Below the pieces are notes generated by a model, which ran no database searches, was not told the origin of the DNA, and worked only from the letters and a program-made list of their open reading frames with translations. DNA of 64,000 nucleotides from Quercus robur (taxonomy: Eukaryota > Streptophyta > Magnoliopsida > Fagales > Fagaceae): assembly GCF_932294415.1 (NCBI RefSeq), contig NC_065538.1, positions 49,538,343 through 49,602,342 of the forward strand, read 5' to 3'. Position numbers and translations under genes: made by a program. This document shows, in pieces, positions 14,100 through 57,914 of the stretch. Positions within the stretch are counted from its first letter, which is position 1. Every line of letters begins with the position of its first letter.

Positions 14100-14149
14100 A
14101 GCCAAAGCCCTCTTTGTAGAAAATGAAAACTATGCATTTTGCATGACAT
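11060..14149 (-). CDS. LINE ORF2 fragment: reverse transcriptase, zf-RVT, RNase H
   Basis: This uninterrupted 1029-codon frame encodes the RT-to-C-terminus part of a plant L1-type ORF2 protein, which copies LINE RNA into the genome. Order: RT domain (about residues 95-400) with the first catalytic Asp in LDMSKAYD (234-241) and the FADD box (340-343); a zf-RVT region around residues 730-800 ending CDLCGKDEETTGHLLWLC; and an RNase H domain (about 895-1010, starting KVNIDGAVF). The N-terminal endonuclease is absent through 5' truncation. The first 17 codons (14149-14099) read from host flank and the target duplication, so this start is accidental; the frame is really open from the truncation. 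It cannot mobilise alone but may keep RT/RNase H residues. Confidence 0.92.
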   Translation of the reverse strand: MSCKMHSFHFLQRGLWLASNRLRRNTISRILDANNLWHEDLEQVGKIFVDYFDQLFSSSQPRVERELLDAITSKVSEGRNASLTKDFHAGEVEKALKQMHPLTAPGPDGMPPLFFQQFWPTVKSIVITTALNFLNHGIAPPKFHDTHIVLIPKTRNPEKVTDYRPISLCNVAYKIDSKAVANRMKLVLQEVIGENQSAFVAGRLITDNVLVAHELMSHISKKKKGNCGEMAIKLDMSKAYDRIEWGCLQQIMQKLGFHDKWISLVMRCVTSVKYAVRVNGLPCGHIQPTRGLRQGDPLSPYLFLICAEGLSALLHQASNRKTIKGVAASIRGPRVSHLFFADDSLVFGRATVSEAKEIQRILKVYELSSGQQLNSNKTSLYFSPNTDNAIRERVKLLFGAQVIKPHEAYLGLPSLVGRSRNNTFAHLKQRVANKVSGWKEKLLTHAGKEVLIKSVAQAVPSYTMSCFLLPKKLCEELTGMIRQFWWGQVKNEKKIAWLSWDKMCMPKDRGGLGFRDLRSFNLALLAKQGWRLQTNSSSLFCRVYKAKYFPHCSFVEATLGRSPSYAWRSLMAAQGVIGKGMRWQVGSGNKIKVWRDKWVPRPCSYKVISPVLQNSKDALVCELINRATNEWDIDKLDQWFIPEDRDTILGIPLSSSISSDRLVWAATKNGKFTVKSAYILALEELKTTGLADCSNGVARRKLWKTIWSLNIPQKIKHFAWKASRNILASKVNLAKRKITPDGVCDLCGKDEETTGHLLWLCQHAKEVWDCSKFALPFDFSANGNFLDVVECLHRRELHRPELLEQFISVCWGIWKNRNDLRMGGKGKAGRTILRNALVLVEEYRVANVPKTEHSVVPANPVSWHPPSHGFYKVNIDGAVFSNRKQAGAGVVIRDEEGEVIAALSKRWNFPLGATEAEAKAWEVGILFARVVGVREVEFEGDSLEVCNALLGLASPPSSVANVLSGCLNQVSVFRQWKVSHIKRQGNVPAHLLAQHAQYVGDYVAWLEECPSLIEHACAQDKCNLFSSVQ

Positions 14150-18429: not shown

Positions 18430-21400
18430 CTAGACCCGTTGCGCTGCATTTAGGCGTTGGTATTCCTCCAGTAAACCCATTGCACTGTCAAACATAGCTT
18501 TTGGATGTGCCTGGACATGCTCAAAATAGAACCTATTCCTAGCATTCCAGATACTCCACGTCGTTATTGCCCACCTCTCCAAGTCACGTTGATCAAGCTT
18601 CCGCTGCAACAATCTGAACAGAAGAAAGAAATCCTCTGTTTCGTTGCTGCATTTCTGAAGTGTACCTCTGAACAGAGACCATACGTTCCTCGCAAACGGG
18701 CATTCCCACAACACATGACAAATTGTCTCGCAATGGTGACAGCAAAGCTCGCATTTTTCGTCAACTCGGACCCGTTTCTTGTGGAGGTTCTCCCTTGTGG
18801 GTAGACATCCTGAACAGGCCCTCCATAGGAAATTTCGAACTTTTGGTGGCACATTTAACTTCCATATCTTCCTCCAGGTGGACCCGTGGGCTTGTCCTAA
18901 TGAGTGCTCAGCTTGGTTAGGATGTAGTAATCGGAGAGCAACCTGGTAAGCCGAACCAACCGTGAATTTTTGTGCTCTGTTTTCTTTCCAAATCAGCTTA
19001 TCCTGGGAATTTAGGTTATTGAGGGGCAGCGCTAGGATGGTGTTACAGGTTCTGCTATCAAAAATAGCTGATAATTTTCCCCTGTCCCACTGCCGTGAGT
19101 CATTATCTATCAACTCAGCCACTTTCCTTCCTTGTGGGGGTGTACTCAAGAAACCAGGTGAGTGAGGCAGCCAAGAGCTAGATGCCACGGAGATACTCCT
19201 GCCATTTCCAATTGTCCAACGTGACCCAGCATGGATGATGTCCCTAGCAGCCAATAAAGATCGCCACACAAATGATGGATTATGGCCCAACTCAGCTTCC
19301 AAGAAAGAGGTATTTGGAAAATACCGTGCCTTGTAAACCCTATAGAACAATGATCCATTGTTGTGGATTAAGCGCCATGCTTGCTTGGTGAGCATTGCAA
19401 GGTTAAAAGCATGGAGGTCTCTAAAACCCATTCCTCCCTTCTTCTTTGATGTGCATAACTTACCCCAATTTATCCAATGGATTTTCCTCTCCTCCCTGTT
19501 TTGACCCCACCAATATCTAGCCACCAAAGAGTTGATACTATCGCATATTGATTTAGGAAGCTTGAATAAACTCATTGAATATGTAGGGATAGCTTGTGCC
19601 ACTGTTTTGATGAGAATTTCACGTCCCGCCTTTGAAATAAATTTCTCCTTCCACCCTAGGACTCTCTTTGTGATTTTCTCTTGGAGCTCCTTGAAGGTCC
19701 CCACCTTTGATTTCCCATTAGGCATTGGGAGGCCCAAATACTTCTCACATTCTGACATTATTCTAGCCCCCAACATTTGCTGGATGTCATTTCTCACCTC
19801 TCGCCTTGTATTCTTGCTAAAGAATAATGTTGTTTTTTGCCTATTTTTTGCTTGACCGGATGCCGCTTCATATTTGCCCAAAAGATCTAGCAGTCTTTGA
19901 CATTCTTCAACCGTGGCTTGGCAAAATAACATAGTATCATCGGCAAATAAAAGGTGAGATATACGTACCCCCTGTTGGCTAGATAGGACACCCTTGAGTG
20001 CTCGGCTCTCTTCAGCTTTCCTCAATAAAGCTGACAACCCTTCGGCGCATAACAGATACAAATATGGTGATAGCGGGTCCCCTTGTTTTATTCCCCTTGT
20101 GGGGGTAATAAAACCCTTTGGTTCCCCATTGATAAGGACGGAATAGGATGCTGTAGTGACTGTCTCCATAGCCATATTTACCCATCTGTGATCTAGGCCA
20201 AGCTTTAACATTATACTTCGCAAAAAACCCCATTCCACCCAGTCATAAGCCTTGCTAATATCCAGCTTTACTGCCATTTGTCCCACCTTGCCTCTCCGTT
20301 TATTCCTCATCCGGTGCAATAATTCATAAGCCACAGTGGTGTTGTCAGTGATCAACCGATTTGGAACAAAAGCACTTTGAGCCTCCGAGATAACATATGG
20401 CAGCACATGCTTTAATCTGTTTGCCATCACCTTAGATAAAATTCTAGATACAACATTAGTCAAGCTAATGGGCCTATAGTCGGCCATCAACAAAGGGTCA
20501 TTCTTTTTTGGAATAAGAACTATATGAGTGAAATTCATTTTACGCAACATATGCCCTGAATTTAATACTGAAAGAATAGCTGCAGTTACATCACTCCCCA
20601 CAATATTCCAAAATTTTTGAAAGAAAAAAGGGGACATACCATCAGGGCCAGGGGATTTTGATGGGTGCATTTGGAAAAGGGTTTGTCTGACTTCTTCAGC
20701 TGTGTACCGCTGTAATAGGGAAGTGTTCATCTCCGATGTAAACCTCTTGTCCACCCCATCCAGTACGCTCTCCATATTCATGGGGTTTTCTGAAGTGAAG
20801 AGATTCTGGAAATAGCTTTCAGCAACCTGTGTAATCTGATCCTCAGATGTTTTCCAGCTACCATCTACATCCTGGATACCTGATATGTGATTTTTACAGC
20901 GCCGCTGGCTAGCCCGTTGGTGGAAAAATTTAGTATTTTTATCTCCTGCAGGTAACCAAATGGACCTAGACCTTTGTCGCCAAAAAAGTTCGTCCTGGTG
21001 TAGAATGGTGTTAATTTCCGATTTCAATGTTCTAATTCTTTGCATATGTTCGGCCTTGTTCTCCCTTGATAGCTCTTCAAGTGTTGCTTTTTTCTCTTCT
21101 AGTTTTGTTTTAGAATTCCCCAAAGTAATTCTGCTCCAATCCACCAAAGCATGCCGGCATTGCTTGATTTTTTCAAAAAGTGTAAACATTGGGCTCCCAT
21201 TTCGGACAGGTAGCCCCCAAGCCTCACGGATCACCCCCTCACAATCTGGATGAGCAACCCACTTCTCTTCAAATCGCCTTGGCAGCCTCCTATTCCTCCT
21301 AAGATTGGGTGATTCAGCCGTTGTTATCAAAATAGGCACATGATCTGAATAAGACACCTGAAGGTGGCTAACCTTGACATGGGGAAAAAGGGCTTTCCAC

Positions 21401-22008
21401 TCAATGTTTGCACACGCCCTATCTAACCTCTCTTGCACCAAATTCTAGCCCATCCTTCCATTATCCCAGGTGAAGATATTACCTCGGTAACCCAAATCTG
21501 TTAATCCACAAAACAAGAGTGCCTCCCTAAAGTCTAGCATTGGCCTTAGAGGCCTAGGGAGTCGGCCTTGTTTTTCCTCCAAGCTTAAAATTTCGTTGAA
21601 ATCCCCACAACATAACCACGGATGTGAACTCCTAGCATGAAGATGCTTGAGCAACTGCCACGACTCCTGTTTTCTTTGTTCTTCAGGCCACTCATAGAAT
21701 CCGGTAAATCTCCAAAACGAATTTTCACCCTTAATCAACGCATCAATATGATGTGGTGAGTAAGTTTGTACATGCAGCTCGACATCTTCCTTCCATAACA
21801 GAGCCAATCCACCTCTTCTATGAAAACTTGGGACAGCCAACATACCTCGGTAGGGTAAATCGACTTGTACCTTTCTCATCTCTTCCACAGATTGTTTTGT
21901 CTCCATCAGAAACAAAACACTAGGAGCTTTTTCCCTCACTAGATTTGAGAGAACGTCAACTGCCGTTTGGTTCCCAAGCCCACGACAGTTCCAGCTTAGG
22001 AGATTCAT
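18430..22008 (-). pseudogene. LINE ORF2 with one in-frame stop: endonuclease and reverse transcriptase
   Basis: ORF2 starts at the ATG at 22008 and would be about 1,190 codons. The N-terminal APE-type endonuclease shows NCRGLGN, METK, GDFNE and, after the stop, SDHVP, which are the usual catalytic stations. A single TAG at 21445-21447 interrupts the frame at the endonuclease's last third; the frame resumes at once, so the nick is one substitution. The RT domain has LDISKAYD and FADD, followed by a zf-RVT region (CELCCHHCETICHVLWECPF). Unlike the LINE at 11060, it ends at LLEEYQRLNAAQRV without an RNase H domain, and a 3' UTR follows. The two are therefore different L1 lineages. Confidence 0.9.
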
Positions 22009-22373
22009 TGGACTCGGCGGGGCTGCTTCTCAGCCTCCGCCGTTGGAAAAATGGTATCATGGTTGTCTCCCACAATTCTGCTCCGCTTACTATTCTTGCA
22101 ACTTCCTTCCACTAAGCTCTCATCGTTGGCTGATACAGTGTCCTTGTGCGTTCTCTTTGATCCCACGGCACTTGGAACCACAGAAGAAACAGAGGTGGAG
22201 GAGGTAGGGTTTCGGGCTATTCTTTTCCACGTTTGCCCTACTTGTTTTTGATGTAACTCACGTGCTGCCTCACGTGGTTGTTTAGTGTATGTGCACTGCT
22301 TCAAAACCTCAGAATCGTAACCCACAGGGACACTAATCAGATTGTCCGTTATACATGGCTGTACCGTCATCAC
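22005..22373 (-). pseudogene. C-terminal end of LINE ORF1
   Basis: This 122-codon frame is the tail of ORF1, the RNA-binding protein of plant LINEs. It is basic and Ser-rich, with no zinc knuckle in the part that remains. Its stop codon overlaps the ORF2 start in an ATGA arrangement (22008-22005), which suggests ORF2 translation by termination and re-start. The 5' truncation near 22391 removed the rest. Assignment rests on position and composition rather than on a motif. Confidence 0.7.
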
Positions 22374-30681: not shown

Positions 30682-32169
30682 CTATTCAGTATCCGAAGGA
30701 GGATATGAAGGTGGGTATGAAGAAGTATCCGAAGCTGCAAACGAAGCCGAAGAAGAAAACGAAGAACCACCAGCACGAGCACCAGCAGCAGCTGCTTCAG
30801 CTTCTTCTAGCATCAAATTCTGCAACCCGGGTCTCAATTCGTTGTTACAGAAATCATCATACTCTCCTTTATCCCCTCCTTTCTTCTTCACTTCTAGCAC
30901 CACCAAACTCGGCGTCAATTCGAAAATCTCAGCCGCAATCGTCAATGGCCCCTTAATTCCTTCCCTTGACCCCTCCAAGCTCACCCTGCAATCCTTCTTC
31001 CTCACTGTAAAGCTGACCAGCTTCGCTATCTCCTCCAATTTCGATATAATTTTCGATACAGGTGCACCAGATACAAACCTCGACTCATCCCCACCTTCTT
31101 CAAACAACCCAGATAAATCAAACCCGCGTGAGAACGATATTATATCAAAAGCATTCAAGCTCGCCGGCCTCGGCAACGTGCCCACCCTCTTCGACCTCCT
31201 AGCAGCCTCAAACCCCGATTCTGATTCCGTCTCGGATAGAGACGAAACCGAATCATTATCATCTTCCTCCTCCTCTTCCTTCTCATCCACCACATTACAC
31301 ACCCTATCATCCTCTATATAAAACTTGATGTGCTTAAACCCCTTCTTAAACCACCGATTCTCCATGATTTCCGGAATCGTAAACCGGGTCTCAGGGTTTG
31401 TATCAAGAAGCCGAGTTAATAGCCGAGTCAACTCAGGCGAAAACCACCTCGGACACCGAAACTCACCCTTGTAAATCTTCTTATACATAGACATAATGTT
31501 CTGGTCATGAAAAGGCAAATACCCAGCCATCAAAACGAAGAGTACAACCCCACAAGACCAAATATCAACCTTACCAGCCTCGTAGCCCTTTCGACCCAAA
31601 ACCTCGGGAGCCACATAAGCAGGTGTACCACAAAACGTGTGAAACAGCCCGTCTTGTCGAATCTGATCGGACACGGCACTGAGTCCGAAATCCGAAACTT
31701 TCAGATCTCCATTGTCGTCGAGCAAGAGATTCTCGGGTTTAAGGTCGCGGTGATAAACCCCACGCGAGTGGCAAAAAGCGACGGCCGAGATCAATTGTTG
31801 GAAGTACTTGCGAGCTATGTCCTCTTTGAGCCGACCTTTGGCAACCTTGTTGAACAGCTCGCCGCCTCGCACGTATTCCATGACGAAGTAGATTTTGGAT
31901 TTCGTGGCCATGACTTCGAAGAGTTGCACGATGTTCGGGTGTCGGACACGGCGGAGGATCGAGATCTCGCGCTTGATGTGAGCGATCAGACCCCCTTTCA
32001 GGATTTTCTCCTTGTCGATTACCTTGATGGCCACGCTTTCGTTGGTTTTCACGTTCCGAGCGTGGTAGACTTTCGCGAAGGTACCGTGGCCTAGGAGTTT
32101 TCCGACCTCGTACCGCCCTAACAGAAGGGCTTGCGCTTCTTTCTTGGTTGTGTTTTTGTTGTTTGCCAT
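30682..32169 (-). CDS. CBL-interacting protein kinase, CIPK12/18/19 group
   Basis: This encodes a 495-residue SnRK3-type Ser/Thr kinase that is activated by calcineurin B-like calcium sensors and phosphorylates transporters and channels, usually at membranes. The kinase domain spans residues 19-273: glycine loop GHGTFAKV, Lys49, catalytic Asp142 in [11 protein letters not shown] at 160-162, activation loop with [14 protein letters not shown]. An acidic linker (297-308) precedes the CBL-binding NAF motif ([18 protein letters not shown] from 339) and the phosphatase-interaction segment (about 387-417). All key residues are present. It is intronless, like the intron-poor CIPK clade, and ends in PPSDTE, a tail I recall from CIPK12-type proteins. 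The frame is open upstream to 32307 but there is no in-frame ATG there; 32167-32169 is the first one. Exact orthology needs a tree. Confidence 0.96.
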
Positions 32170-32454
32170 TCTTCTTTCTTTTTTTCTTTTTTTGAAATGA
32201 AAATGAGAACCTTTTCTTTTAGAAATGGAATGAAAGGGTTTTTGTGGTGGTGTTGGTGGTGATGGTGGACCTAGTTTTTGTCGTGCTTTGTGTTTGTGAT
32301 GATGCACGCCTCCATTGGCTTGGAAACTGCCTATAGGCTATATAGGTCTAGCTAAAATAAATGGGTTTCTTATTTTCTTATTTGGTTTTTTTTGTGTAAA
32401 GAATTGAGAGATCAATCATGAAATGAGTCGGAGGGGTTTGTGGGTTGAGAGATT

Positions 32455-38534: not shown

Positions 38535-40586
38535 ATTGAAGGGGTAAAATATGAGTTTTACATCACGTCCTTAGAGAATTTAATCTCATATATTAATATA
38601 TATATATATATATATATTTATTTATTTAATTGTTTATTCTTATTTTTCTTGTAATCTAAAAGCAAAATATCACTTGTATCCTTACAAATTGTGTGTCCTA
38701 TTATTATTGCTGTTTGATTCTTAAAAAGTGATAAGAAAATAAAAGAATTAAAAGATTCAATCTATGGGATGTATTTTTTATAAAATAAAAAAGAATTTAA
38801 GACTTTTTTTTTTTTTGAGAAAGAATTTTTTTGGGGCCAATCTTGCAATATGTTCTGCTCATATTGGAAGCTAGTCAAGCCATCAAATGCCTCCATATAT
38901 AATCTTGTAGATTAACCAAACCCAAAGTATTTAATATGAACAATCTACCAACCAATTCATCTATCCTTAATATTGGGCTATCCTGATTTTCTAAAATCAT
39001 AAAATTATCAATTAAAAAAAATTCTTTTATTTTTTTAATGAACGAAATCGAAATTATCATTGTACTGTATTAATTACATAAGTGAGGTAAGGCATGCATT
39101 CATATGTATATGCATTTGATTGGGACATAATCTGGTTTAGGAGCATATGATCTTTCATCTGGGCGGGATTCTCATAGAAAGAGAAGCTTGATGAACATGA
39201 CATGTGAGTTTGGATGGATATGTTGTGTTCTTGATGTCCTTGATGCTCTCCAATAATTCTTTGATGCTGCCATGTCTATGTTTCTACCTTGGATGTGATA
39301 TAATGCCATGTATGATAGATGCATGCTAGGGTTTGGATATGTTGAGATGCATGATAAAGGTATGTTAGGGTTTGGGATGAAATGTCATGTTGTATGCTAG
39401 ATGCATGTTAGCGTGTGTGTGAATATAGAATGATAAATGTTGAACTTGCCTTTAATGAGATTAAGACGTAAGACACAATGAGTGGAAGTCGACTCACGAG
39501 TCAGGTGGGGTTGGGTGCCTAACACCTTCTCATCCCTATACCTAAACTCTGGACATGTGCTCTGATAGTAAGATTAGACCTTCCACAAAAGGGCACTATA
39601 TTTATGGTTTCTAGGCCTAATCTAGATGGCAACTCCATGTTTTTCAGTAGCTTGATTCCCTAGATGGGAACACTTGGGTATTGAAATGATATAGGCCCCA
39701 CAATGCAAAAAGGAAGTAAGTACTTGAAATCATGCCAACAAAAAAGAACTGCACTAACTTAGAGGAAGGATCAGATTAGTCCTTTAGCTGGTTCCTGAAG
39801 TTTAGAACTTATTAGCATGTTTCCTCCTATAGTTTCAATAGCTTGATTCATTGGATGCGAACACTTGGGTGTTAAAATGATATGGGCCCCTCAATGCAAA
39901 AAGGAAGTAAGTACTTGAAATCGTACCAACAAAAAAGAACTGCACTGACTTAGAAGAAGGATCAGATCAGTCCTCTAGCTGGTTCCTGAAGTTTAGAACT
40001 TATTAGCATGTTTCCTTTGTTTATGTCTTTGTAGCATGTTTGATTGTTCAATATATAGAAGTTATGTACTTGTTCTTCAATACTGGCTCCAGAATTATGC
40101 TTCATGCTATATTGGAGCTAATCTGCAGAATAAAAAGTGTAACATTATGTATTAGCATGTATTTATTTGTTATCCTTATCTTTTAGTCAAGTACGTTAAA
40201 GGGAAATGGAAGAGGGAGGCAGGGAATTATTAAAGGCACAATGTGATATGCTTTTACAGGATGTAAAGATTTGTGATTCTGTTCATAGATAAACATTTAA
40301 TGTGCATTGGCTTAAAAGAAAATCTAGGGAGTCAAGTTTTTCAATGCCTTTAGACAATGTTTAATTTACCAGCTAAAGAAAAAAAAAAAAAAAAGAAAGA
40401 GAAAATGGAGGCTCACATTCTTACTGATGATTTTTGGTTTGTGAAGTTCAACCTATCTTCTATCAAGTAAGAAATCTTTGATGGTTCTAGGATAGTTCAT
40501 GTACTTGTATGCTTGTCTTATACTTTATAGCATGTTAATACAAGGCTTACAATGTTTGAAATAAAATATTATTTTGCTAAAATGAT
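38535..40586. other. Intergenic with a 191-bp tandem duplication
   Basis: Two copies start at 39649 and 39840 with AGCTTGATT and end near GCATGTTTCCT; they share AATGCAAAAAGGAAGTAAGT and AGCTGGTTCCTGAAGTTTAG and look about 90-95 percent alike. No coding frame crosses them. The rest is AT-rich with no recognised feature. Confidence 0.8.
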
Positions 40587-41749: not shown

Positions 41750-43688
41750 CCAGGGGCGGAGGGAGGGGGGGGGGGGTGAGGGGGGGCACCTGACCCCCCT
41801 GAACTTTCAAATTTTTTTAACTAATATGACCTGAAATACCATCTTTGCCCCCCCTACACAAAAGACAAAAAAAAAAAAAAAAAATCTCAATTAAGTAAAT
41901 TCACGTTACCTTTCCAACTTTCCTAGTAGCAGTTGACTTCTACTCCTAATGGTGGTACAATTCTATATATAAAATCAATGGGCCCCACTTAGTAAACTTG
42001 ATAGTTGATGAATTCACGTGATATGTCTACTAAAGAACAAATGGCAATTGCTTTGCGCTATGTGGACAAATTGGGACATGTGAATGAGCGCTTTTTAGGC
42101 ATTACACATGTTAATAATACATCAGCAGTGACACTAAAGAGTGCAATTGAGGAAGTATTTAATAAACATAGCTTAAGCATTAGTAGATTGCGGGGACAAG
42201 GCCACGACGGGGCAAGCAACATGCGAGGTGAGTTAAATGGACTAAAAACTCTTATTTTGAAAGATAATCCTTCTGCCTATTATGTCAATTGCTTTGCACA
42301 TCAGTTTCAACTAAAATTAGTTGCAGTAGCAAAAAATCACATCCAAATTGCAACCTTTTTTAACTTGGTTGCAAAGGTATTCAATATTGTTGGAACATCA
42401 TGTAAACGTCGTGATATTCTTCGCAAAAAACATAATGCTGAAGTTATAGAAGCACTAAAAAATAATGAAATTTCAACTGGTCATGGCTTGAATCAAGAAA
42501 TGAGTCTAAAAAGACCTGGAGATACACGTTGGAGTTCTCATTATGGTGCACTTGTAAATCTTATTCACATGTTTTCTTCTGTAATTGATGTGATTGAAAC
42601 TATTATAGAAGATGGTTTAGATTCTGATCAGAGAGCAGAAGCAAATATCTTAATTGGTTTACTCCAGACATTTGAATTCGTGTTTGATTTACATTTGATG
42701 AAAGGTGTGTTTGGCATAAGTAATGAGTTGTCACAGGCATTACAACGAAAAGATCAAGATATTGTGAATGCTATGAAGTTGGTTGACATTTCAAAGCAAC
42801 GTTTACAAGCCATGAGAGATGATGGGTGGAACACTTTGCTAGAGGAGGTTTCTACATTTTGTGCAAAAAATAATATTGATGTTCCTGATATGGATGATTT
42901 ATATCAACCTCGGCCACGACGAAAAGCTCAAAACATGAAAAATTCACATCATTATCAAGTGGAGCTTTTTTATACTGTTATAGATATGCAACTTCAGGAA
43001 CTTAATAGTCGTTTTGAAAATTCTAAATTATTACTTTGTGTTGCGTGTTTGAACCCAGATAACTTATTTTCAGCATTCAACAAGGAGAAATTGATTCGGC
43101 TTGCTCAGTTTTATCCAAGTGATTTTTCAACAGTTCAAGTTTCTTTCTTGGATAACCAACTTGAGACATACATCCATGACATGTGGTCCACTGAAGAGTT
43201 TTCAACACTTAAAGGAATTGGACAGCTTGCTGAAAAGATGGTAGAAATGAAAAAGAATGTTTCATATCCATTGGTTTACTCATTAGTGACTTTGGCATTG
43301 ATCTTACCAGTTGCAACAGCTACTGTTGAAAGAGCTTTTTCAGCAATGAACATAATTAAAAATCGATTACGCAATCGAATAGGAGATCAGTGGATGAATG
43401 ATTGCTTAGTCACATATATTGAGAAAGATATATTCAAAACTATTGAATGTGAAGAAATCATGCAGCGGTTTCAAAATATGAAAAATCGTCGAGGCCAATT
43501 GAGTAAAATAAGCTAGGTGTGAAAAAATAAATTAAAGTTTACATTTTCTGTTAGATTCTGTATGACAATTACATTGTCATATAGTTGTTTACTTATTTTG
43601 TTATTAATATTGATTAATTTTTTACTTCCAATCTTGTCTTTTAATCTTGCCCCCCCCCCCTGATCTAAATTCCTGGCTCCGCCACTGG
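41750..43688 (+). mobile_element. hAT element nested in the Mutator-like element
   Basis: The ends are CCAGGGGCGGAG (left) and, reversed, CCAGTGGCGGAG (right), typical of plant hAT elements with ZMYM/TTF-type transposases. Flanks CATCCAAA and ATTCCAAA suggest an imperfect 8-bp target duplication. Subterminal G-rich (41754-41788) and C-rich (43651-43660) runs are present at the two ends. Confidence 0.85.
42005..43516 (+). CDS. hAT-type transposase, N-terminally shortened
   Basis: This 503-codon uninterrupted frame is the central and C-terminal part of a plant hAT transposase of the TTF-type zinc-finger/DUF4371 (ZMYM1-like) group, which binds element ends in the nucleus and cuts the DNA. Visible are GHVNERFLGITHV, an RNase-H-fold segment with GQGHDGASNMRG, CFAHQFQLKLVAVAKNH, and the C-terminal dimerisation domain ending in LPVATATVERAFSAM. 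The family normally begins with a zinc finger and the first half of DUF4371 some 250-300 residues upstream; only about 250 bp separates this ATG from the element end, so that part was deleted. It could act as a partial protein but is unlikely to bind ends. Confidence 0.9.
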   Translation: MMNSRDMSTKEQMAIALRYVDKLGHVNERFLGITHVNNTSAVTLKSAIEEVFNKHSLSISRLRGQGHDGASNMRGELNGLKTLILKDNPSAYYVNCFAHQFQLKLVAVAKNHIQIATFFNLVAKVFNIVGTSCKRRDILRKKHNAEVIEALKNNEISTGHGLNQEMSLKRPGDTRWSSHYGALVNLIHMFSSVIDVIETIIEDGLDSDQRAEANILIGLLQTFEFVFDLHLMKGVFGISNELSQALQRKDQDIVNAMKLVDISKQRLQAMRDDGWNTLLEEVSTFCAKNNIDVPDMDDLYQPRPRRKAQNMKNSHHYQVELFYTVIDMQLQELNSRFENSKLLLCVACLNPDNLFSAFNKEKLIRLAQFYPSDFSTVQVSFLDNQLETYIHDMWSTEEFSTLKGIGQLAEKMVEMKKNVSYPLVYSLVTLALILPVATATVERAFSAMNIIKNRLRNRIGDQWMNDCLVTYIEKDIFKTIECEEIMQRFQNMKNRRGQLSKIS

Positions 43689-46771: not shown

Positions 46772-47130
46772 GATTATTCAATATTTAATAATATAGTGAT
46801 ATATTCATATGGTGTTTCTTATTTTTATGTAATAATTATTTTTACTAATGTAAGTCGTTTTATTTAGAGAATACTTAATAATTTTTTCTAATTTGGTGAT
46901 ATTAATTAGTCTCTTTTACAAGGAGAATTATAATTTAATAGAGATTATTCAATATTTTAAGAATATAGTGATATATTCATATGACATTTCTTATTTTTAT
47001 GTAATAATTATTTTTACTAATGTAAAATAAGAGAGCACAAATTCGTTTTATTTAGAGAATACTTAATAATTTTTCATAATTTGGTGATATTAATTAGTCT
47101 CTTTTATGAGGAGAATTATAATTTAAATCT
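46772..47130. repeat. 171-bp tandem duplication inside the CACTA element
   Basis: Units begin at 46772 and 46943 with GATTATTCAATATTT and share TATAGTGATATATTCATATG, TTTATTTAGAGAATACTTAA and TGGTGATATTAATTAGTCTC. The second copy is a few bases longer (an AAATAAGAGAGCACAAATT insertion). Confidence 0.9.
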
Positions 47131-47193
47131 CTCCTTTAGTTTGTTGTAACAATAGAATTATCAAGATAAAAAAAATAAAAAATAAAAATCTAC

Positions 47194-47938
47194 TGTGGGG
47201 ACTATGGCCCAAAGTAACGAGTTGGACCTTGGGCCCATCCGAGGACGCCAGCTTGTCCGAGGAGACAACATGGCTTAAGCGATCCATGTTAAGCCTATCA
47301 CGGGAAACAAAGAAAAAAGGTCCGAGGAGGAATTCCTCCTCGGACACTGAAAATTTGGAGCGGAGGTACGTCCAAGCCACTGAAGCCCATCCCCTAAATA
47401 CGTGAAAAGGAAGGAAACACAAAATATCTACGCAAAATCTACCACCACCACCACATTGAATGCACTACAGCTACTTTCCTAGCCGCATTAATGCGGAGAA
47501 GACCCCTGAACAATGTTACCTTGGCTACCACAATTCACAAAGGACTGAAAGAGGTGTCTAATGGGATGGGTGCTCAAGTGGAGGCTTGGATGATCAATAA
47601 GTGTAAAGCCTAGATAATAAGAAAGGGCCTATATAATGTATAGAAGCCCCCATAAGGAAGGGGACGGAAAAAGGAAGGTAGGATACTGTAGCATGCAAAG
47701 AAACCCTAATGTACTGGTCTGTATACATAAATTAAGTTTTGAGTCTCCTCGGACTGTGAGATCTTTCAATGTAATGGCTTTTGTTCTTGTCCATGTGTAC
47801 CTTTATCCCATGCAAGCCTTTGTTTAACTTATCTAAACCTAGTTCTTTGACCCATACTCTACAAAATTCATTGTATTGGGCTTTTTTGGATCAAGACTTC
47901 ACAAGATAGGGGTTTGGGCTCCAAACTGTGTCCTTAGA
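47194..47938 (+). repeat. 5' LTR of the Tat-type gypsy element
   Basis: This 745-bp LTR starts TGTGGGGACTATGGCCC. With the 3' LTR (57168-57909) I counted roughly 45 differences by eye (about 6 percent), mostly transitions. A TATA-like TATATAATG lies at 47630. TCTAC (47189-47193) is the left target duplication. Confidence 0.95.
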
Positions 47939-47939
47939 A

Positions 47940-47957
47940 TTGGCACCGTCTGTGGGA
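47940..47957 (+). promoter_or_regulatory. Primer-binding site of the gypsy element
   Basis: TTGGCACCGTCTGTGGGA begins two bases after the LTR and resembles the TTGGCGCCGTCTGTGGG motif common in Tat-lineage elements, with one G-to-A change. I do not assign the tRNA. Confidence 0.75.
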
Positions 47958-47992
47958 AAGAACTTGAGTGTTAGTAAGTACGACGGTTAAGC

Positions 47993-49960
47993 ATGGCAGG
48001 ATCAAGTCCACACCAAGAAAGTCCACACCAAGAAAATCCATGCCAAGCTGACCCTCAGCAGACAGAACCTATTGGGCCTCAGCGGCAAAATAATCCTCCT
48101 AACCCTGGGCCAAATCTAGGCAACGAAAGGAACCGAGAAGGAAGCGTACATACTACTCAGACGAGCCAAAGCCACTCCCAAGTAGGTAGTCGCATATCCC
48201 AAAGGCAAAACAACTATCAGGCCATGCAGCGAGAGATAGACAACCTGAAAAAGAAGTTGCGTTGTGCACAGCAAAGGCAGTCCCTTTCCAACTCAGACAT
48301 ATCCTCTAATAAGAAAGTGGATGTCAGTTACAGGTGAAGATCAAGAACTCCCCCAAGTGAAACCTTTTCCTACGAAAAGGAGCAGCGCCCTGAACGGAGG
48401 CATAGGATCCCATCTAGTAAGGGTTTGGGTAATGATGCCATGAACAAAGCACTAGATCAGATCTCCATATCACCCTTCGCGCATAGGATAGAAGGGGCTA
48501 AACTACCACGACGTTTCCATCAACCTACGTTTACCATTTACAACGGCCGAGCAGACCCTGTAGAGCATGTGAGCCAATTTAACCAAAGAATGGCTATCCA
48601 TTTTCGAAATGAGGCTCTAATGTACAAAGTTTTTCCGTCCAGCCTAGGACCCGTGGCGATGAGATGGTTCAACAGCTTGAAGACGAACTCCATAGATTCC
48701 TATAAATAGCTCACTCAAGTTTTCTGCTCTCGCTTTATTACGAATAGCAGAGTCCCTCGGCCCCTAAGTTCGTTATTATCCTTATCTATGCACGAAGGGG
48801 AAACCTTAAAGGCGTATTCGGACAGGTATTAGGAGATGTATAACGAGATGGATGAAAACCACGATGACGTCGCCATCAGCACGTTCAAAAGTGGTCTCCC
48901 CACCGAGCACGGTTTAAGGAAGTCTCTAACTGGTAAACCCATCACCAATGTTTGCCAACTGATGGACAGGATTGACAAATACAAAAGGGTGGAAGAGGAC
49001 CAGCTACAAGGGAAAGGAAAGGAGAAGATTATCCCCCCCAAAGGGAATGATTACAGGTCAGAACGATATAACAGTAACCAGCCGAGAAGGGATTTTTCGA
49101 GACAGGCTGGACAAACCAACATGCAAGCGATTAATGCCGTATTCAGAGAGCCGGTGCAACAGGTTCTAGAGAAAGTCAAAAATGAACCTTTCTTCAAATG
49201 GGCGAGTAAAATGGCCGAAGACTCCTCAAAACGTAACCAGAACCTGTATTGTCATTATCATCAAGACCACGGGCATACCACCGAGGATTGCAGGAATCTA
49301 TGGAATCACCTAGATCAGTTAGTCCGAGAAGGAAAATTACGCCACCTTTTACACCCCTTTAGCGGTCATCTGGGTCAGGCATTTCAAGAGCCTCGAAAAG
49401 ATGTATCTTTGAGACCTCTCATGGGGACGATACACGTCATCCTCGCCACTCCAGGGAGGACCGGCTCTTTTCCCTCCGGGGTGCTGTTTGTGGCTCGGCT
49501 CCCCACCGAGGATGGTGAAAAGGAGTCCAAAAGATCTAAAAAGGGAAACTCGCCTGTGTTGGGGTTCTCGGACAAGGATAAGATAGGAACTATCCAACCT
49601 CATGACGATGCTTTGGTAGTTACATTAAGGATCGGAGGGTTCGACATGAAGAGAGTACTGATGGACTCGGGCAGTGCTATGGAAGTGATGTACCCTGACC
49701 TGTATAGGGGGCTGAACCTAAAGCTTGAGGACTTAACAGCTTATGACTCTCCTCTTATAAGTTTCGAAGGGAAGACTGTCATACCAAAAGGGCAGATCAG
49801 ATTGCCCATACAGACCAGATCAGAGGTGGTGGAGGTGGATTTTATTGTGGTCGACGCCTACTCACCCTACACGGCCATAGTAGCCAAACCTTGGCTCCAT
49901 ACCCTAGGAGCCGTTTCTTCTACACTTCACCATAAGGTAAAATACCCGTCGGGGGGCTAA
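47993..49960 (+). pseudogene. Gypsy gag-protease, interrupted
   Basis: This encodes the capsid polyprotein and aspartic protease of a Ty3/gypsy Tat-lineage element. Three open blocks (47993-48337, 48425-48709, 48836-49960) stay readable across in-frame stops near 48338, 48707 and 48828. The gag core is at about 48480-49000 (FTIYNGRADPVEHV, MRWFNSL). A CCHC-like knuckle (CHYHQDHGHTTEDC) follows near 49250. The protease has its active-site triad in VLMDSGSAMEV (Asp at 49664). The first ATG at 47993 is about 35 bases after the primer-binding site. The stops show that this copy cannot make its own capsid. Confidence 0.92.
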
Positions 49961-52900
49961 GTGGAAGAGATTGGTGGAGATCAAGCCATAGCTAGGCAAT
50001 GCATGGTAGCCGCCATCTCACGCCGGTCCGGCGCAGAATCCTCGGCGTCTGTGAAAAAGGACTTATAGCAATCAACCACCTCGGCAGCACAAGTCGGTGA
50101 ATTAGCCGAGGAGATAAAATGTGAAAATTTAAAAAGGGTTGCCATTGACAATAATCTAGAAAGATTTTTCCAAGTCAGCTCGGAATTACCTCTCCAAGAA
50201 AAAGGGGAACTGATCGGGTTTCTGAGAAGGAATGTTGATGTATTTGCATGGGATGCCTACAATGCCCCGAGAGTTGACCCTAATCTCATTTGTCACTACC
50301 TAAACTTTAACCTATCTTCTATTCCAAAGAAGCAGCCACCCCGGCGCCCGTTGAAAGAGCATGCCGACGCTGTTAGGGATGAAGTGATGAAGTTGAAAAA
50401 GGCAGGGGCTATCAAAGAAGTCTTTTACCCCAAGTGGTTGGCAAATACAGTGGTGGTAAGAAAGAAGACGGGGAAGTGGCGAGTCTGCGTAAACTTCACA
50501 GACTTAAACAAGGCGTGCCCAAAGGACCCGTTCCCGTTGCCTCAAATAAACCGATTGGTAGATGCGACTGTAGGCCACCCCCGAATGAGCTTCCTGGATG
50601 CCTTCCAGGGTTATCATCAAATACCACTGGCTCTAGAAGATCAGGAGAAGACAGCGTTCATGACACCCATCGGAAACTACCACTATAAGGTGATGCCTTT
50701 TGGTTTAAAGAATGCAGGGTCAACCTACCAAAGGATGATGACCAGAATGTTCGAACCACAACTAGGCAAGGCTATTAAAGTCTACATAGACAATATGGTA
50801 GTAAAAAGTAAAGTGGTGTCCGAGCACGTGAGAGACCTTGAAGTCATTTTTGGCATCTTGAGAGAGCACAAGCTGCGCCTCAATGCTTCTAAGTGTTCAT
50901 TTGGCATCGGGTCTGGTAAATTTCTGGGCTATATGGTAACTCACAGGGGAATAGAGGTAAGCTCAGACCAGATCAAAGCGATTAATAGCCTACAAGCTCC
51001 TCAGAACCCAAAAGAAGTACAGAAAATCATTGGAATGATCGTAGCATTAAATCAGTTCATTTCCCAATCTGCAGACTGATGCCGACCTTTCTATCTCTTG
51101 ATGAACAAGTGGAAAGGATTTGAATGGTCCGAGGATTGTGCCCTAGCCTTCTAACAACTTAAAAAATACCTGTCACGGCCACCTATCATGTCTAGTCCGG
51201 AGGCCGACGAAGTTCTGTTCGCATACATAGCAGTGGCCTCTCAAGCTGTAAGCTTGGTATTAATACGGGTTGATAATGGCATATAGCGACCAGTATACTA
51301 TGTAAGTAAATCGTTACATGAAGCTGAAGTGCGCTACTTACCACTGGAAAAGGCAATTCTTGCAGTAGTGCATGCCACGCGAAAACTTCCCCACTACTTT
51401 CAGGCACACACAGTCATTGTCCTGACTCAACTTCCCCTCCGGTCGGTGCTCCGAAGCGTCGATTACACAGGAAGAATCGCCATGTGTAGTACGCTTCTAG
51501 GGGCTTTCGATATTAAGTACATGCCTCGGACCTCTGTCAAGGGCCAAGTCCTCGCGAATCTAGTCGCTGAATTTGCTGAACCCTCTGTAGAGGCAGTAGC
51601 GGAGGAGGAAAACATGGATGGAAAATCGGTTGGCACAATCTCTACACAAGGAGTCTCGCGACGGAAGGTCTACGTTGATAGCGCGTCAAACCAGAAAGGA
51701 TCTGGGGTAGGGCTAGTTCTAATATCGCCCGAGAGGATTACCATTGAAAAGTCATTAAGACTTGGGTTCTCGACTACAAACAATGAAGCCGAGTATGAGG
51801 CTTTGCTGCAAGGAATGGTCATGGTGTAAAAAATGGGCGGAAAAGCAATAGAAGCGTTCTCGGACTCCAGACTGGTTGTAGGCCAGGTGAGGAGCGAGTT
51901 GGAGGCTAGAGATACGAGAATGCAGGAGTACCTTGGTCAAGTCAAACGTCTGCAATTAGACTTCGAATTTTTTAACTTGACGCATGTCTCTAGGAGTGGG
52001 AACACACATGTGGATTCGTTGGCCGCTCTTGCCACATCTTCGGCGCAGGATCTACCACGAATGATCCTTGTTGAGGATTTATGCAAGACAGATACAATCA
52101 AAAAGGATACAGTTTGAATCCATCAAGTCAGAATGAATCCGAGATGGATGGACCCCATAGTGAGTTTCCTCAAAGATGATGTATTGCCCGAAGAAAAATT
52201 GGAGGTCGAGAAGATACGAAAGAAGGCTCCTAGGTTTTGGTTGTCAGAGGACCACAAGCTATACAAGCGCTCCTACTTTGGACCATATTTATTATGCGTA
52301 CACCCAAAGGCATCAGAGTCATTGCTTGAAGAACTGCATGAGGGAATTTGTGGGAGTCACACGGGAGGAAGATCGCTAGCACACAGAGCACTCACCTAAG
52401 GGTACTGGTGGCCGAGCATGCAAAAAGAGGCCCAAGAATATGCAAAGAAATGCGATCAATGCCAGAGATTCGCCCCAAATATCCACCAACCAGGGGGAGT
52501 CCTTAACCCCCTCTCTAGTCCTTAGCCCTTCGCCCAATGGGGTCTGGATATTGTCAGCCCTTTCCCAAAAGCAGTAGGGAACAAGCGATACTTAATAGTC
52601 GGCACGGATTACTTCACCAAATGGGTTGAGGCTGAGCCTTTAGCTAACATCAGGGACGTGGATGCAAAGAAGTTCATTTGGAAAAACATCATTACACGCT
52701 TTGGAACTCTTCGCACCCTTATCTCGGACAACAACCTCCAATTTGATAGTAAAAATTTCAGGAAATATTGCTGTGACTTTAGAATCACAAACCGATATTT
52801 CACTCCAGCCTATCCCCAAGGAAACGGGCAAGCCGAAGCTGTGAATAAGGTCATAGTGAACGGGCTGAAAAAGAGACTGGATGATGCAAAGGGAAGATGG

Positions 52901-53371
52901 GTGGAAGAACTACCACACGTCCTATGGACCTACCGAACCATGCTGCGATTGTCAAAGGGAGAAACTCCTTTTTCGATGACTTATGGGGCTAAGGCTGTGC
53001 TCCCCCTAGAAACTAGCTTCCCACCGTTGAAATCCAGCACTTTTACTCCAAGAAATAATGACGAGTTACTAGGGAGAAGTCTAGATTTAGCCAAGGAGAA
53101 AAGAGAAAAAGTGATGATCCAATTGGCCTATTTCCACCAAAAGTTAAAGCAGGGGTACGATACTAATGTAAAATTAAGGCCACTAGGGCCAGGCGACCTC
53201 GTGATGAGAAAAATTTTTGGCAGCGCCAAGAACCCTTCCTGGGGTAAGCTGGGACCCAACTGGGAAGGACCATATCGCATCACCTTAGTGGCAGGAATAG
53301 GTGCTTATTATCTGGAAGACCTAGATGAGAAAATTGTACCTCGCCCGTGGAATGTAAATAATCTGAGATGA
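49961..53371 (+). pseudogene. Gypsy pol: RT, RNase H, archaeal-type RNase H, integrase (broken)
   Basis: The reading continues from protease into reverse transcriptase (50351-51079; VNFTDLNKACPKD, FLDAFQGYHQI, MPFGLKNAGSTYQ). The catalytic YxDD box reads YIDN (50783-50794), so the second aspartate is lost. A gypsy RNase H follows (about 51290-51590), then a second, archaeal-type RNase H (KVYVDSASNQKGSG, NNEAEYEALLQG; 51660-52070); this pair marks the Tat lineage. The integrase has the HHCC finger (HEGICGSH, CDQC) split by TAA at 52397-52399 and by TAG at 52523-52525, then the catalytic Asp in GLDIVS, Asp in LISDN and Glu in GNGQAEAVNK. Several stops plus YIDN make it non-functional. Confidence 0.93.
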
Positions 53372-53452
53372 TATTATTATTAATGAAAACAGCTATGCCT
53401 GTATTGTGTCCCGTGATCATCGCGTATTTGTTGGCTCACTTCCATCTACACT

Positions 53453-53770
53453 AGTTTTAAACAGAACCTAAGTCCTGCATGGCTCCTCGGACCACAGGCT
53501 AAAGGGAAATTAACAACTTATGGCATCTATACAAGTTTTAAACAGAACCTAGGTCCTGCATGGCTCCTCGGACCACGGGCTTAGGGGAAATTAACAACTT
53601 ATGGCATCTATACGAGTTTTAAACAGAACCTAGGTCCTGCATGGCTCCTCGAACCACAGACTTAGGGGAAATTAACAACTTATGGCATCCACACAAGTTT
53701 TAAATAGAACCTAAGTCTTGCATGGTTCCTTGGACCACAGGCTTAGGGGAAATTAACAACTTAGGACTTC
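53453..53770. repeat. About 81-bp tandem repeat, four copies, between integrase and the antisense gene
   Basis: Units start at about 53453, 53532, 53614 and 53696 with AGTTTTAAACAGAACCTAGG and end with AACTTATGGCATCTA. This places an array exactly between the two convergent genes of the element. Confidence 0.88.
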
Positions 53771-54095
53771 TATGCAGTTCTAAGGTATGTTCATAGTCTT
53801 GCATGATAGCATTTATCGTTTAAAGTTCATTACACAATTCTGTTTCTTCTCATTTGCTTATATTGGTAAGGTTGTTGCAAACATCAACTAAAGAAACAGT
53901 CACATTGACTCGGAACAATATAATAAAATTCCATCAACATCAATCATAAAGACAAAAAATGAGAGGAAGAGCATTTGTATTGATAAACCAAGAATAATAC
54001 AATGAGAGGTCTTTGCAAAAGAACAAAATGCAATACAACTTCTGTCCGAAATAAAAAATATATATATACAGTAATAATAATAAGAACCCTAGGAG

Positions 54096-56700
54096 CTAAG
54101 ACTCAGCAGGAGGATCTTCTTTTTGCTCTGGCTGAGGAGATGGAACATCCTTGACTTGGGGACCTGCCCCATGATCCTCAGCCTCAGTGATTGCTTCCTT
54201 AGCAAGATCCTTGGCCTTGGAGGAGGTTTTCTTTCCCTTACCCTTGCCTTTACCCTTCTCTTCCTCCACATCCTCAACCCGGACGGCGACCTGACCAGAG
54301 CCCCCGGTAATTTCAGCTAGGGGGTGGCATCAGGAACAGCCGTGGGCTGCTTAGAAGCTTCAGTGGTATCGGCAGGGATCTCCCGGATCTCTAGAGGGAA
54401 GAAGACCTTCTCGAGCAATCTCAAGGCAGAGTCTGCAGGGATCCCTGCAGCATTAAGAGCCTGAGCCCATGAAATGCTGCCGTAATCCCTGCATACCTCT
54501 GGCAGCTCCTCGGAAAGCCTTGCCTCAGTCTCCTCCACTCCGAGCTGGTAAGCAGCCCTTTTTTCAGCCTCAGCTGCTTCCTTGACTAGTTGAGCTTCTT
54601 CCTTGGCAAGCCGGGCCTCTTCTTTGGCTTTCTGCAACGCGGCCTTGAGATCCAGTACGGCTTGCTTTTCAGTAGCAAGGTTGGTCTCAGTCACGTACAG
54701 TTTCTGGCGTTGATCGTCAGCTTGTTTTTCAGCAGTCTTCAAGCCAGCCTCAGCACTCTTACAGCCTGACTCAGCCTCCTTGAGCTTCTCAGATAGCTCG
54801 TAATGATCCAGCTTGAGGGCTCCTAGAGCCTTCTCCACCTTAGCACGAGAGAGGGCTTCAACATCAGCTAACTTACGATTGTCGCGGCACCACTCCTTGG
54901 CCACAAATACTTGTTGAGTGATCTGCCCAAGAAGTGACAAGATAACAAGTTAAAATATGACATGATCCAATGATCTTACCGATGAGAGGATGAATTGCCT
55001 TACCATCGCAAGCTCTCTCTTCAGGGATAAGAAGAGTTTAGACTGTGAAAATCGCCTGTAAGCCTCTATGTCCCTGGGAAGGAGAACGGGTTACTCTAGG
55101 GCTTCAGCAATGTACCCCTCTCGGCCCCTATTATACTCTCGAATTGAAGCATTATAGGGAATGGCTACTCCGTCCACTTCGAGTCGGGGGCTCCAAGTGC
55201 GCGGAGGCACACACACTTCAGCCCGCTCCATCTCCTCTTGGCTCTCCACAAATGGAGCCCTTTTGTCCCGATGCTCCTGAGTTGTTTTTTGTTGTTTACT
55301 GCCCTGGCGAGGACCCACCTTGCCTTCCTCGAGGGACTCAACCGACCTTTTCTTCTTCAGGTTGGGATTAACTTTCAAGCCGAGATCAGCAGGGATTTGC
55401 GGAGTAGTAGGAGGAAGGACAGAGGTCTGGGACTTGGCAGGCGCCTTCGATGATTGCCCCTTGCCTCGGGCAGCCATTAGCTCTCGCAAAATTTTTCCTT
55501 TGTTGGAGGCCATGTTGTCCACTTCCTCGTCCGAAGAGTTGTCCGAGCAGGCAATAATAAGAGGGGCGCCGATCACGGAGTTTCTATCCGGTTTTCCCTT
55601 AACGTCTGAAAGCTCGATCAGGGGAGCTCTTAGAATATCCTCCTCAAAAGTAGAACTCGTCTATCTCCTCCTCAAGAGAAAGACAGGATGGTTTAGTATC
55701 TTCTTCAACACGTGCTGCAACTTTGGAATTATCTTGTGGAAGTGGTTGTGCAGCTGGCTGAGGATTCTGAATACCAGGCAAAACAACCGGTCTAAGATCG
55801 TCTCGAGCCAAAAACCTCGGCTTCGACACGTCAATCCTTGCCAACCTTGGACTATTGGCTCTTATGGAATGGCTGATGTCTAGGAAAGCGCGGGACAAGG
55901 GCTCATAACCCAAAATCAGATGAGCCGTACGTAGTTGTCTGTCCTCGTTAACGTAGATCTCTGACCTCAAAAGATAGTTTAAGGCCTGAACGTTTACGTG
56001 GCTCAGTCGAGAAGCGATGTGTGCTCTATCTGCAAAACAGCCGAGAAGGAAATTGTAGTTAAGTTACAAAAATTTTGAATCTTCAATCAAAGGAAAGAAA
56101 AACTAAAGGGTTAAACCCCCTTCCCAGGGGATTGATCCTAAAGGCACCACACCTGGATCTCCTGCCCGAGTTGGACAATGAAGACCATCGCTCCACTCTC
56201 CCGAGGCAATAAGAAAGTCATCTTTCATACGCTTATTGGATTTAGGAAGACAGGAGATTAGCCTAATGATCTCGGACTGAGATTTAAGGTAGTATCCCGC
56301 TTTGTCGAGATGGTAGCACTCGTACAGGTGAACTACGTCATGCCATGTAAGGCCCAAACCCATCCGCTCGTTCAGAACATCTATGCTGCCTAAGACCCTA
56401 AACAGGTTGGGAATGCACTGGTGCGGTGTCAACCTATGGTTACGCAAATAATCCCGAGTAATCCTACGCATGAGAAGCGTCATTCCTCCTTCTATAAAAG
56501 CAATCATGGGAATGATGACTTATCCCACGTCCCTATCGGTCAGCACTCGGTTTGGAGGATAGTACTCCAAAACCACCCCCTACGGGATGCGGTACTTTGC
56601 CCTAAAGGCCTCTATGGCGGCCGGAGTATCTACTAAACACTTGAATCTACCCATCTAGTCGAACCGGTGGGCTGAGGAGGAAGGCCGAGGTGAAAATTGG
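54096..56700 (-). pseudogene. Antisense, intron-containing gene inside the gypsy element
   Basis: On the strand opposite gag-pol, open blocks (about 56654-56103, 55970-55644, 55576-55091, 54940-54317) read as one protein. The N-terminal part (RFKCLVDTP, HQCIPNLFRVLG, GLGLTWHDVVHLYECY) resembles plant transposon-associated proteins of unknown function. The later part is a long Ala/Glu/Lys coiled coil, then a Lys/Gly-rich tail. A clean intron is at 54923-55003 (GTAAGG donor, TTGGGCAG acceptor, phase 0); another acceptor (GTTTTGCAG) lies at about 56031. Stops (for example TAG next to 56654, TAA near 55090) and a one-base shift in a C run near 54320 break it; the last frame ends with TAG at 54096-54098. 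Function unknown. Confidence 0.75.
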
Positions 56701-56902
56701 GGTTACGAAGAGGAAGTAGAACTTACAAGTATCCTTACAACAATCTCTGAAGCTCTCAGAGATTTCCTTAGGGAAAGGTTTCTCACTGAAGTAGTCACGG
56801 AAATTCGAAGGCCTGGAACGTTAATGAAGAACTAGGCGCTGGGATTCTCTGGCGAACTTGAGTATTAGTAGAAAAGAAAAGCAGAAAGAGCTTCCCCAAG
56901 GC

Positions 56903-56910
56903 CTTATATA
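56903..56910 (-). promoter_or_regulatory. TATA box of the antisense gene
   Basis: On the minus strand this reads TATATAAG, inside the element, about 250 bases before the first coding block of the antisense gene. Transcription would start near 56875. The downstream leader is CT-rich. It suggests that the antisense gene has its own promoter, separate from the LTRs. Confidence 0.6.
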
Positions 56911-57167
56911 GCAAAGGAGGAAAGGGAAGGTCACTCCTGCCCAAAATTCTAGGAAGAATGCCAGCCGTTAGATTTGCGTTTCGCCACTGGATGGGGGAGA
57001 CATAAAGCCGCCTAGAGTAATAAGTCGCACCTCGTAATTTGTAATGCGTCAGAAGCAACTGTCCCCACACGTGCAAACCGAAAACTAATTGATCTTATCC
57101 CTTAAAAAAGTCAAAACCCCGCTTTTCTCCTCTGAAGGAGATAAAAACCGGAGTTTTGAGGGGTTAT

Positions 57168-57909
57168 TATGGGGACTATGGCCCAAAGTAACGAGTTGGG
57201 CCTTTGGCCCGTCCAAGGACTCCAGCCTGTCCGAGGAGACAACATGGCTTAGGTGATCCATATTAAGCCTATCACGGGAAACAAAGAAAAAAGGTTCGAG
57301 GAGGAATTCCTCCTCGGACACTGAAAATCCGGAGCGGAGGTACGTCCAAGCCACTGAAGCCCATCCCCTAAATACGTGAAAAGGAAGGAAACACAAAATA
57401 TCTAAGTAAAAGCTGCCACCACCACATTGAATGCACTACAGCTACTTTCCCGGCTGCATTAATGTGGAGAAGACCCCTGAACAGTGTTACCTTGGCTACC
57501 ACAACTCACAAAGGACTGAAAGAGGTGTCTGATGAGATGGATTCTCAAGTGGAGGCTTGGATGATCAACAAGTGTAAAGCCTAGATAATAAGAAAAAGTC
57601 TATATAATGTATAGAAGCCCCCTTAAGGAAGGGGATAGAAAAAGGAAGGTAGGATACTGTAGCATGCAAAGAAACCCTAATGTATTGGTCTGTATACATA
57701 AATTAAGTTTTGAGTCTCCTCGAACCGTGAGATCTTTCAACGTAATGACTTTTGTTCTTGTTCATGTGTACCTTTATCCCATGCAAGCCTCTGTTTAACT
57801 TATCTAAACCTAGTTCTTTGACCCATACTCTACAAAATTCATTGTGTTGGGCTTTTTTGGATCAAGACTTCACAAGATAGGGGTTTGGGCTCCAAACTGT
57901 GTCCCCACA
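57168..57909 (+). repeat. 3' LTR of the Tat-type gypsy element
   Basis: This 742-bp LTR matches 47194-47938. Its first dinucleotide is TA rather than TG, while its end is CA. TCTAC (57910-57914) is the right target duplication, identical to the left one at 47189-47193. A TATA-like TATATAATG is at 57601. Confidence 0.95.
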
Positions 57910-57914
57910 TCTAC

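Follow-up and report, generated by a model that had tools for sequence, protein, structure and literature searches.

The locus and its host element

The window, a stretch of 64,000 nucleotides of the Quercus robur genome, harbours a decayed gypsy element of 10.7 kb (47194-57909) with an LTR at each end. The 5' LTR (47194-47938) and the 3' LTR (57168-57909) are both on the plus strand, the 3' end of the former being set by eye. They are identical in 694 of 738 aligned columns (K2P 0.0616), and the target-site duplicate TCTAC flanks the element at 47189-47193 and 57910-57914. Directly left of the insertion site, at 46784-47126, there are two short near-duplications, of 70 and 87 bp with 94% identity.

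A gag-pol region occupies a single frame on the plus strand (47978-53371), which carries 12 premature stops in 1798 codons. The order of its Pfam domains is RT, RNase H, a second RNase H (RVT_3) and integrase; the RVT_3 match (51830-52117, E 1.5e-7) lies between RT/RNase H and the integrase. A second RNase H placed between RNase H and integrase is described as characteristic of the Tat subclades Ogre and Retand in angiosperms (PMC6317226). Between the integrase and the 3' end of the antisense gene described below there are 4.0 copies of an 81-bp tandem repeat (53443-53763, unstranded), with a decayed extension that reaches 53847. The region from pol to the 3' LTR (53372-57167) measures 3.8 kb and contains an antisense frame, which places it within the range of 2,933-6,566 bp with antisense ORFs taken as characteristic of Tat/Retand elements; tandem repeats in this region, present in about half of the clusters, are represented by the 81-bp array. 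Judged by the second RNase H, the layout between pol and the 3' LTR and the repeats, the element is of the Tat/Retand type of Ty3/gypsy.

Elsewhere in the window, two long ORFs on the minus strand (11060-14188 and 18430-22029) look by eye like LINE-type reverse transcriptases, a 551-aa open frame (30682-32337, minus strand) like a CBL-interacting protein kinase and a 503-aa open frame (42005-43516, plus strand) like a hAT-type transposase. A 191-bp tandem duplication with 91% matches is located at 39642-40016.

The antisense gene

On the minus strand, between the integrase and the 3' LTR, a gene of three exons runs from 56654 to 54096. Exon 1 (56153-56654) begins with an ATG at 56654, contains a Transposase_28-like domain and is followed by a phase-1 intron (56030-56152). 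Exon 2 (55004-56029) is separated by a phase-0 intron (54923-55003) from exon 3 (54096-54922), in which a long coiled coil precedes a lysine-rich tail and the terminal stop at 54098-54096. The copy in the window is dead. There are in-frame stops at 56582 and 56522 in exon 1 and at 55093 in exon 2, with frame breaks near 55660 in exon 2 and near 54325 in exon 3. The initial annotation had placed antisense blocks downstream of the integrase, and these are where it put them; the coordinates and phase that it gave for the intron at 54923-55003 also stand. It named that intron only, and missed both the second one at 56030-56152 and the decay of the copy.

Read by blocks, the antisense frame has three stops in 782 codons; in 300 dinucleotide shuffles the mean was 36.6 and the minimum 24. 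Its codon usage scores 0.048 per codon under a model of gag-pol, compared with a shuffle maximum of 0.009. The later blocks account for this signal; neither exon 1 nor the beginning of exon 2 resembles gag-pol. The intron segments are rich in AT (61-62%) and in T (38-41%), and the exon blocks have 46-53% AT and 18-27% T. A sense ORF of 200 aa (55281-55883) overlaps the gene.

Relatives and past selection

The genome (786 Mb in 42 contigs) was searched with the antisense region. Scoring 40 of 1867 candidates led to 44 places. Ten fragments were left out, and the 33 near-full-length places other than the window itself, a set biased toward its nearest kin, were aligned with it, giving 34 copies. 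In the viral_contigs set, exon-1, integrase and RT pieces and the primer-binding-site pattern detected no relatives. The single match in the genome_contigs set was a chance one, in an ORF that resembles by eye a bacterial aminotransferase.

None of the 34 aligned copies has a fully open antisense frame. The ATG column is kept in 28 of them, and the terminal stop column is occupied by a stop codon in 33. Over all copies the antisense frame has 0.51 stops per 100 codons, compared with 4.3-4.5 in the sense-strand frames of the region. Premature stops occur just as often in the antisense gene, with 135 in 26249 codons, as in the integrase, with 30 in 5374.

Conservation in relatives and a dN/dS ratio below 1 had been proposed as checks in the initial annotation, and both were borne out: the frame pattern and the splice sites are kept among the 33 relatives, and the median dN/dS of the antisense frame over 561 pairs is 0.21, far below 1, with values of 0.18 to 0.31 by block. 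Registers shifted by one or two bases give 0.83 and 1.13. The ratio is higher in close pairs (0.54 for the 24 pairs with dS <0.15) than in deep ones (0.20 for 466 pairs), as would be expected if selection stopped at insertion. The integrase could be aligned in 22 of the 34 copies, the 12 others comprising five without a match in the stretch fetched and seven in which the match was too short; in the same 22 copies dN/dS is 0.19 for the integrase and 0.22 for the antisense gene.

Variants present in at least three copies amount to 0.350, 0.280 and 0.666 per site at codon positions 1, 2 and 3, respectively, with the caveat that repeated C-to-T mutation at methylated positions can imitate shared variants or add to them. 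The corresponding values for private variants are 0.335, 0.289 and 0.339, and the two distributions over codon positions differ with a chi-square P of 2e-11. Shared variants per site number 0.388 in intron 1, 0.649 in intron 2 and 0.557 in the leader. Intron 1 read as codons gives a dN/dS of 0.59, and both this value and the low number of shared variants in intron 1 count against a simple picture. These comparisons indicate that the antisense gene has been under past purifying selection about as strong as that on the integrase, and that the frame is almost certainly a protein gene and not a run of chance ORFs.

Introns

With approximate scoring matrices, the donor of intron 2 (55003) ranks first among 151 GT sites on the minus strand and its acceptor (54923) 11th among 271 AG sites. 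Donors and acceptors with equal or higher scores are present on the control strand too, so splice scores alone prove little. An alternative donor for intron 2 at 54979 was considered and 55003 preferred, since the former has GT in only 25 of 34 copies.

In the alignment, intron 1 has its GT in 34 of 34 copies and its AG in 32, and intron 2 has GT in 33 and AG in 31. For the other GT and AG dinucleotides in the region, average retention is 23.3 and 25.2 of the 33 relatives, and 21 of 129 GT and 84 of 252 AG match the conservation of the intron sites (32 and 31). The dinucleotides at the intron boundaries are thus only moderately more conserved than the regional background, a modest argument when taken alone. 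Stronger evidence comes from in-frame stops within the introns: intron 2 has one at 54952 in all 34 copies and intron 1 one at 56105 in 33 of 34, and no stop column in the exons is common to more than six of 34 copies. The commonest donor of intron 1 in the family of the window is CAG|GTGCGG, found in 21 of 34 copies.

Length variation was considered relative to the window. The length of intron 1 leaves remainders of 0, 1 and 2 on division by three in 15, 11 and seven relatives, and in exon 1 a single remainder holds for 27 of 33. One remainder likewise dominates in exon 2 (22 relatives) and exon 3 (25); this majority remainder differs from that of the window, as the frame breaks of the window copy would lead one to expect. 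Intron 2 shows one remainder in 30 of 33 relatives and hardly changes in length, so that its length is uninformative. Both introns are multiples of three in the window, and a single copy is therefore readable as coding stretches with stops. Taken over the family, the gene very probably has two spliced introns.

Across copies, intron 1 (56030-56152) is less variable than either intron 2 or the third positions of codons. In the leader, a further intron is possible at 56655-56726 on the minus strand, from a GTAAGT at 56726, whose GT is present in 30 of 34 copies, to an AG directly before the ATG, present in 32 of 34. A leader intron ending at 56672 was rejected, as the AG occurs in four of 34 copies.

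The encoded protein and its distant homologues

The Pfam cut-off for Transposase_28 (TRP28, PF04195) is 26.2 bits. Exon 1 of the window reaches 14.5 bits at best, with E values of 0.042 for a 73-aa piece and 0.23 for 138 aa, and a Pfam scan of the 168-aa exon 1 with its stops marked X returned no Transposase_28 match. Of 14 relatives in which exon 1 is free of stops ten were scanned, and Transposase_28 was the best family in all ten (E 0.00036 to 0.02, 15.5-21.1 bits), each below the cut-off. Scores in this range mark exon 1 as a divergent relative of the family, not to be filed as a member. The conserved positions of Transposase_28 listed by Vicient are G21, P25, L34, P46, N47 and F55 (PMC11963269); in an ungapped comparison with the register set by eye, the window has four of the six and most of the 14 relatives have five.

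More distant loci of the same genome connect exon 1 with the family proper. Of 4149 candidates, 150 were scored for Transposase_28 and all 150 stand above the cut-off, as against none in 14 control genomes. Four distant loci (L076-L079), chosen for other match shapes or from the commonest group, score 44.9-51.7 bits and so exceed the cut-off; exon 1 is homologous to them, matching each at 24-28% identity, with E values of 4e-10 to 4e-6 when compared with one locus at a time. A phase-1 donor of the form GTGCG follows exon 1 in all four, and a phase-0 intron stands directly before the coiled-coil exon in three, one acceptor being read by eye; the fourth has a stop codon where this intron would stand. 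In the three distant loci checked, the gene is antisense to an integrase that is 47-51% identical to that of the window. By eye, L076-L079 have at least one further intron between the exon-1 and coiled-coil introns, which the family of the window does not have.

The structure predicted for exon 1 is poor (mean pLDDT 42.8), and a PDB search by sequence gave nothing better than E 0.98. Exon 3, predicted without an alignment, forms one helix of 145 residues, with a pLDDT of at least 90 for 91 of 197 residues. Lysine-rich stretches were noticed by eye in the protein. Matches of the coiled-coil block to Gag_p17 and Exonuc_VII fall below their cut-offs and were set aside.

Probable promoter and repeated motif

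A TATA box, TATATAAG, stands ahead of the gene on the minus strand at 56903-56910, where the initial annotation had placed it, and occurs once in the element when both strands are counted. It is internal, about 258 bases from the boundary of the 3' LTR. When the 512 bases upstream were shuffled by dinucleotide 1000 times, the same string arose in three shuffles and the looser TATAWA in about 10%. A TATAWA at the right distance, 254-305 nt ahead of the ATG column, is kept in 31 of 33 relatives. From this conservation we consider that the antisense gene probably has its own promoter.

The 5' LTR contains four copies of a short motif, CTCCTCGGAC, which lie to either side of the sense TATA box (47630); two of these copies form a 26-base palindrome at 47320-47345. 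When up to one mismatch is allowed, the 9-base core of the motif is found in all four units of the 81-bp array, and five times each in the 5' LTR, in the 3' LTR and in the 47 kb to the left; the average for shuffled LTRs is 0.07. A repeated 9-mer that is also present in the array unit arose in three of 1000 dinucleotide shuffles of the LTR. Across the 33 relatives, LTR stretches contain 5.27 sites per kb, arrays 9.19 and the gene 0.86, with one locus lacking an LTR match and one an array match. The motif also exceeds shuffles in gag-pol (7 versus 0.97). Conservation at its sites does not exceed that of the remaining LTR, the same level being reached by 940 of 2000 random placements, and a comparison matched for CpG (0.140, n=10, versus 0.258, n=22) is at most suggestive. 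That CTCCTCGGAC is a target of the antisense protein is possible, as an idea and not as evidence. Motifs of the TCCTCGGAC type are spread over 47237-47755, 53484-53735 and 57211-57726, that is, both LTRs and each 81-bp repeat unit.

Interpretation

Our preferred explanation, which we think has a better than even prospect of being correct, is a three-exon antisense accessory gene of a Tat/Retand-type gypsy element with its own internal TATA box. The frame, the two introns as genomic features, the past purifying selection, the antisense orientation and the conservation of the TATA box belong to the sequence itself; the expression of the gene would run as follows. Pol II would transcribe it from the internal TATA box toward the integrase, and splicing would remove the introns from the antisense transcript only, while the sense genomic RNA would carry them unspliced. 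Since the introns lie antisense to the genomic RNA and are not spliced from it, reverse transcription would keep them in each copy. The protein may dimerise through its coiled coil and enter the nucleus, where the Transposase_28-like domain would bind DNA and the protein would regulate the expression or silencing of its own element. That the product is a nuclear DNA-binding regulator of the element is a tentative proposal, held with slightly less than even confidence by analogy with gene23 of Grande (PMC7264820) and from the predicted DNA binding of the domain (PMC11963269).

A different function for the same protein would be to help replication or the nuclear entry of the integration complex without regulating expression. 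This has been considered in the literature (PMC7264820) and a nuclear coiled-coil protein would fit it, but a promoter of its own would separate the antisense protein from the gag-pol product, and we regard such a role as unlikely. The antisense RNA might instead be what matters, as a source of dsRNA or siRNA that tunes the element, with the protein incidental. The transcript would overlap the sense genomic RNA, and a role for RNA has been proposed beside the protein hypothesis (PMC7264820); such a role would not, however, lead one to expect constraint on amino acids (dN/dS 0.21, with private variants flat across codon positions) or the conservation of intron phases in distant loci. As a replacement for the protein it is improbable, and it could act in addition.

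We think it highly improbable that the locus holds several separate small antisense ORFs with spacers between them rather than one spliced gene. The conserved splice dinucleotides, an intron 1 whose length is free of steps of three next to an exon 1 that keeps its phase in 27 of 33 relatives, and the same phase-1 and phase-0 boundaries with recognisable splice sites in distant loci all argue for splicing, although both window introns are multiples of three and the published survey counts 104 antisense ORFs, of which 57 have Transposase_28, and lists Smc-type ORFs separately (PMC11963269). An open antisense frame could also be a by-product of constraint on a sense-strand protein, such as the overlapping 200-aa sense ORF at 55281-55883. 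With 4.3-4.5 stops per 100 codons in the sense frames against 0.51 in the antisense frame, and dN/dS of 0.83 and 1.13 in the shifted registers, we give this view next to no credence.

The three-exon accessory gene can be extended to a bolder proposal, which we consider quite unlikely. An ancient Retand antisense gene would have a fixed layout, with a Transposase_28-like exon, a phase-1 intron, a linker, a phase-0 intron and a coiled coil, and its dimeric product would recognise CTCCTCGGAC. The copies of this motif around the LTR promoter and in the neighbouring array units would be the targets of the protein, forming a self-targeting regulatory or anti-silencing circuit like that of VANC. If this were true, antisense placement would be what lets a retroelement keep introns.

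Comparison with known systems

Antisense ORFs with Transposase_28, for which DNA binding is predicted, are a characteristic of Retand, being present in all but two of 63 clusters analysed, in eudicots and monocots (PMC11963269). The initial annotation had linked the gene to grass elements, and this was too narrow in view of that survey. The gene in the window is like the ORFs of the survey in its antisense orientation, its position between pol and the 3' LTR, its N-terminal Transposase_28-like domain, the coiled-coil or Smc-type ORF alongside and the tandem repeats near pol (PMC11963269). It differs in that the domain in the family of the window is below the Pfam cut-off, and in that its blocks form one gene with two introns, whereas the survey lists ORFs and the word intron is absent from its text (PMC11963269). 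In maize Grande, gene23 is an antisense accessory gene with its own upstream promoter and a product reported to be nuclear, and the authors call for spliced antisense transcripts to be examined (PMC7264820). The present gene resembles it as an antisense accessory gene with its own upstream promoter, here predicted from the TATA box.

Antisense Transposase_28 ORFs in Retand and a promoter of their own in Grande are thus already known. What appears to be new is the conserved two-intron layout; one that joins Transposase_28 to a coiled coil was not found in the literature searched, and an earlier report elsewhere is possible. Our observations suggest that Transposase_28 and Smc-type ORFs that are listed separately can be exons of one product. 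Experiments on the role of the Retand antisense ORFs now have a defined protein and predicted splice junctions to test. The locus would also be a clear example of introns that pass through reverse transcription because they lie antisense to the genomic RNA.

The proposed protein would work like HBZ of HTLV-1, an antisense nuclear regulator encoded near the 3' LTR of a retroelement, with no homology claimed. HBZ involves splicing and has a leucine zipper. It is named in the Retand survey (PMC11963269). The HTLV antisense promoter is located in the 3' LTR (PMC7264820), in contrast to the internal TATA box of the gene in the window.

A further possible analogy is with the VANC anti-silencing proteins of VANDAL transposons, which are encoded by the element and whose targets are often tandem repeats within it (PMC5735166). 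A VANC-like factor would bind a motif of its own element and reduce the methylation there. In both cases an element-encoded protein would have the repeats of its own element as targets, which here are candidates; VANDAL, the host of VANC, is a DNA transposon, unlike the element in the window.
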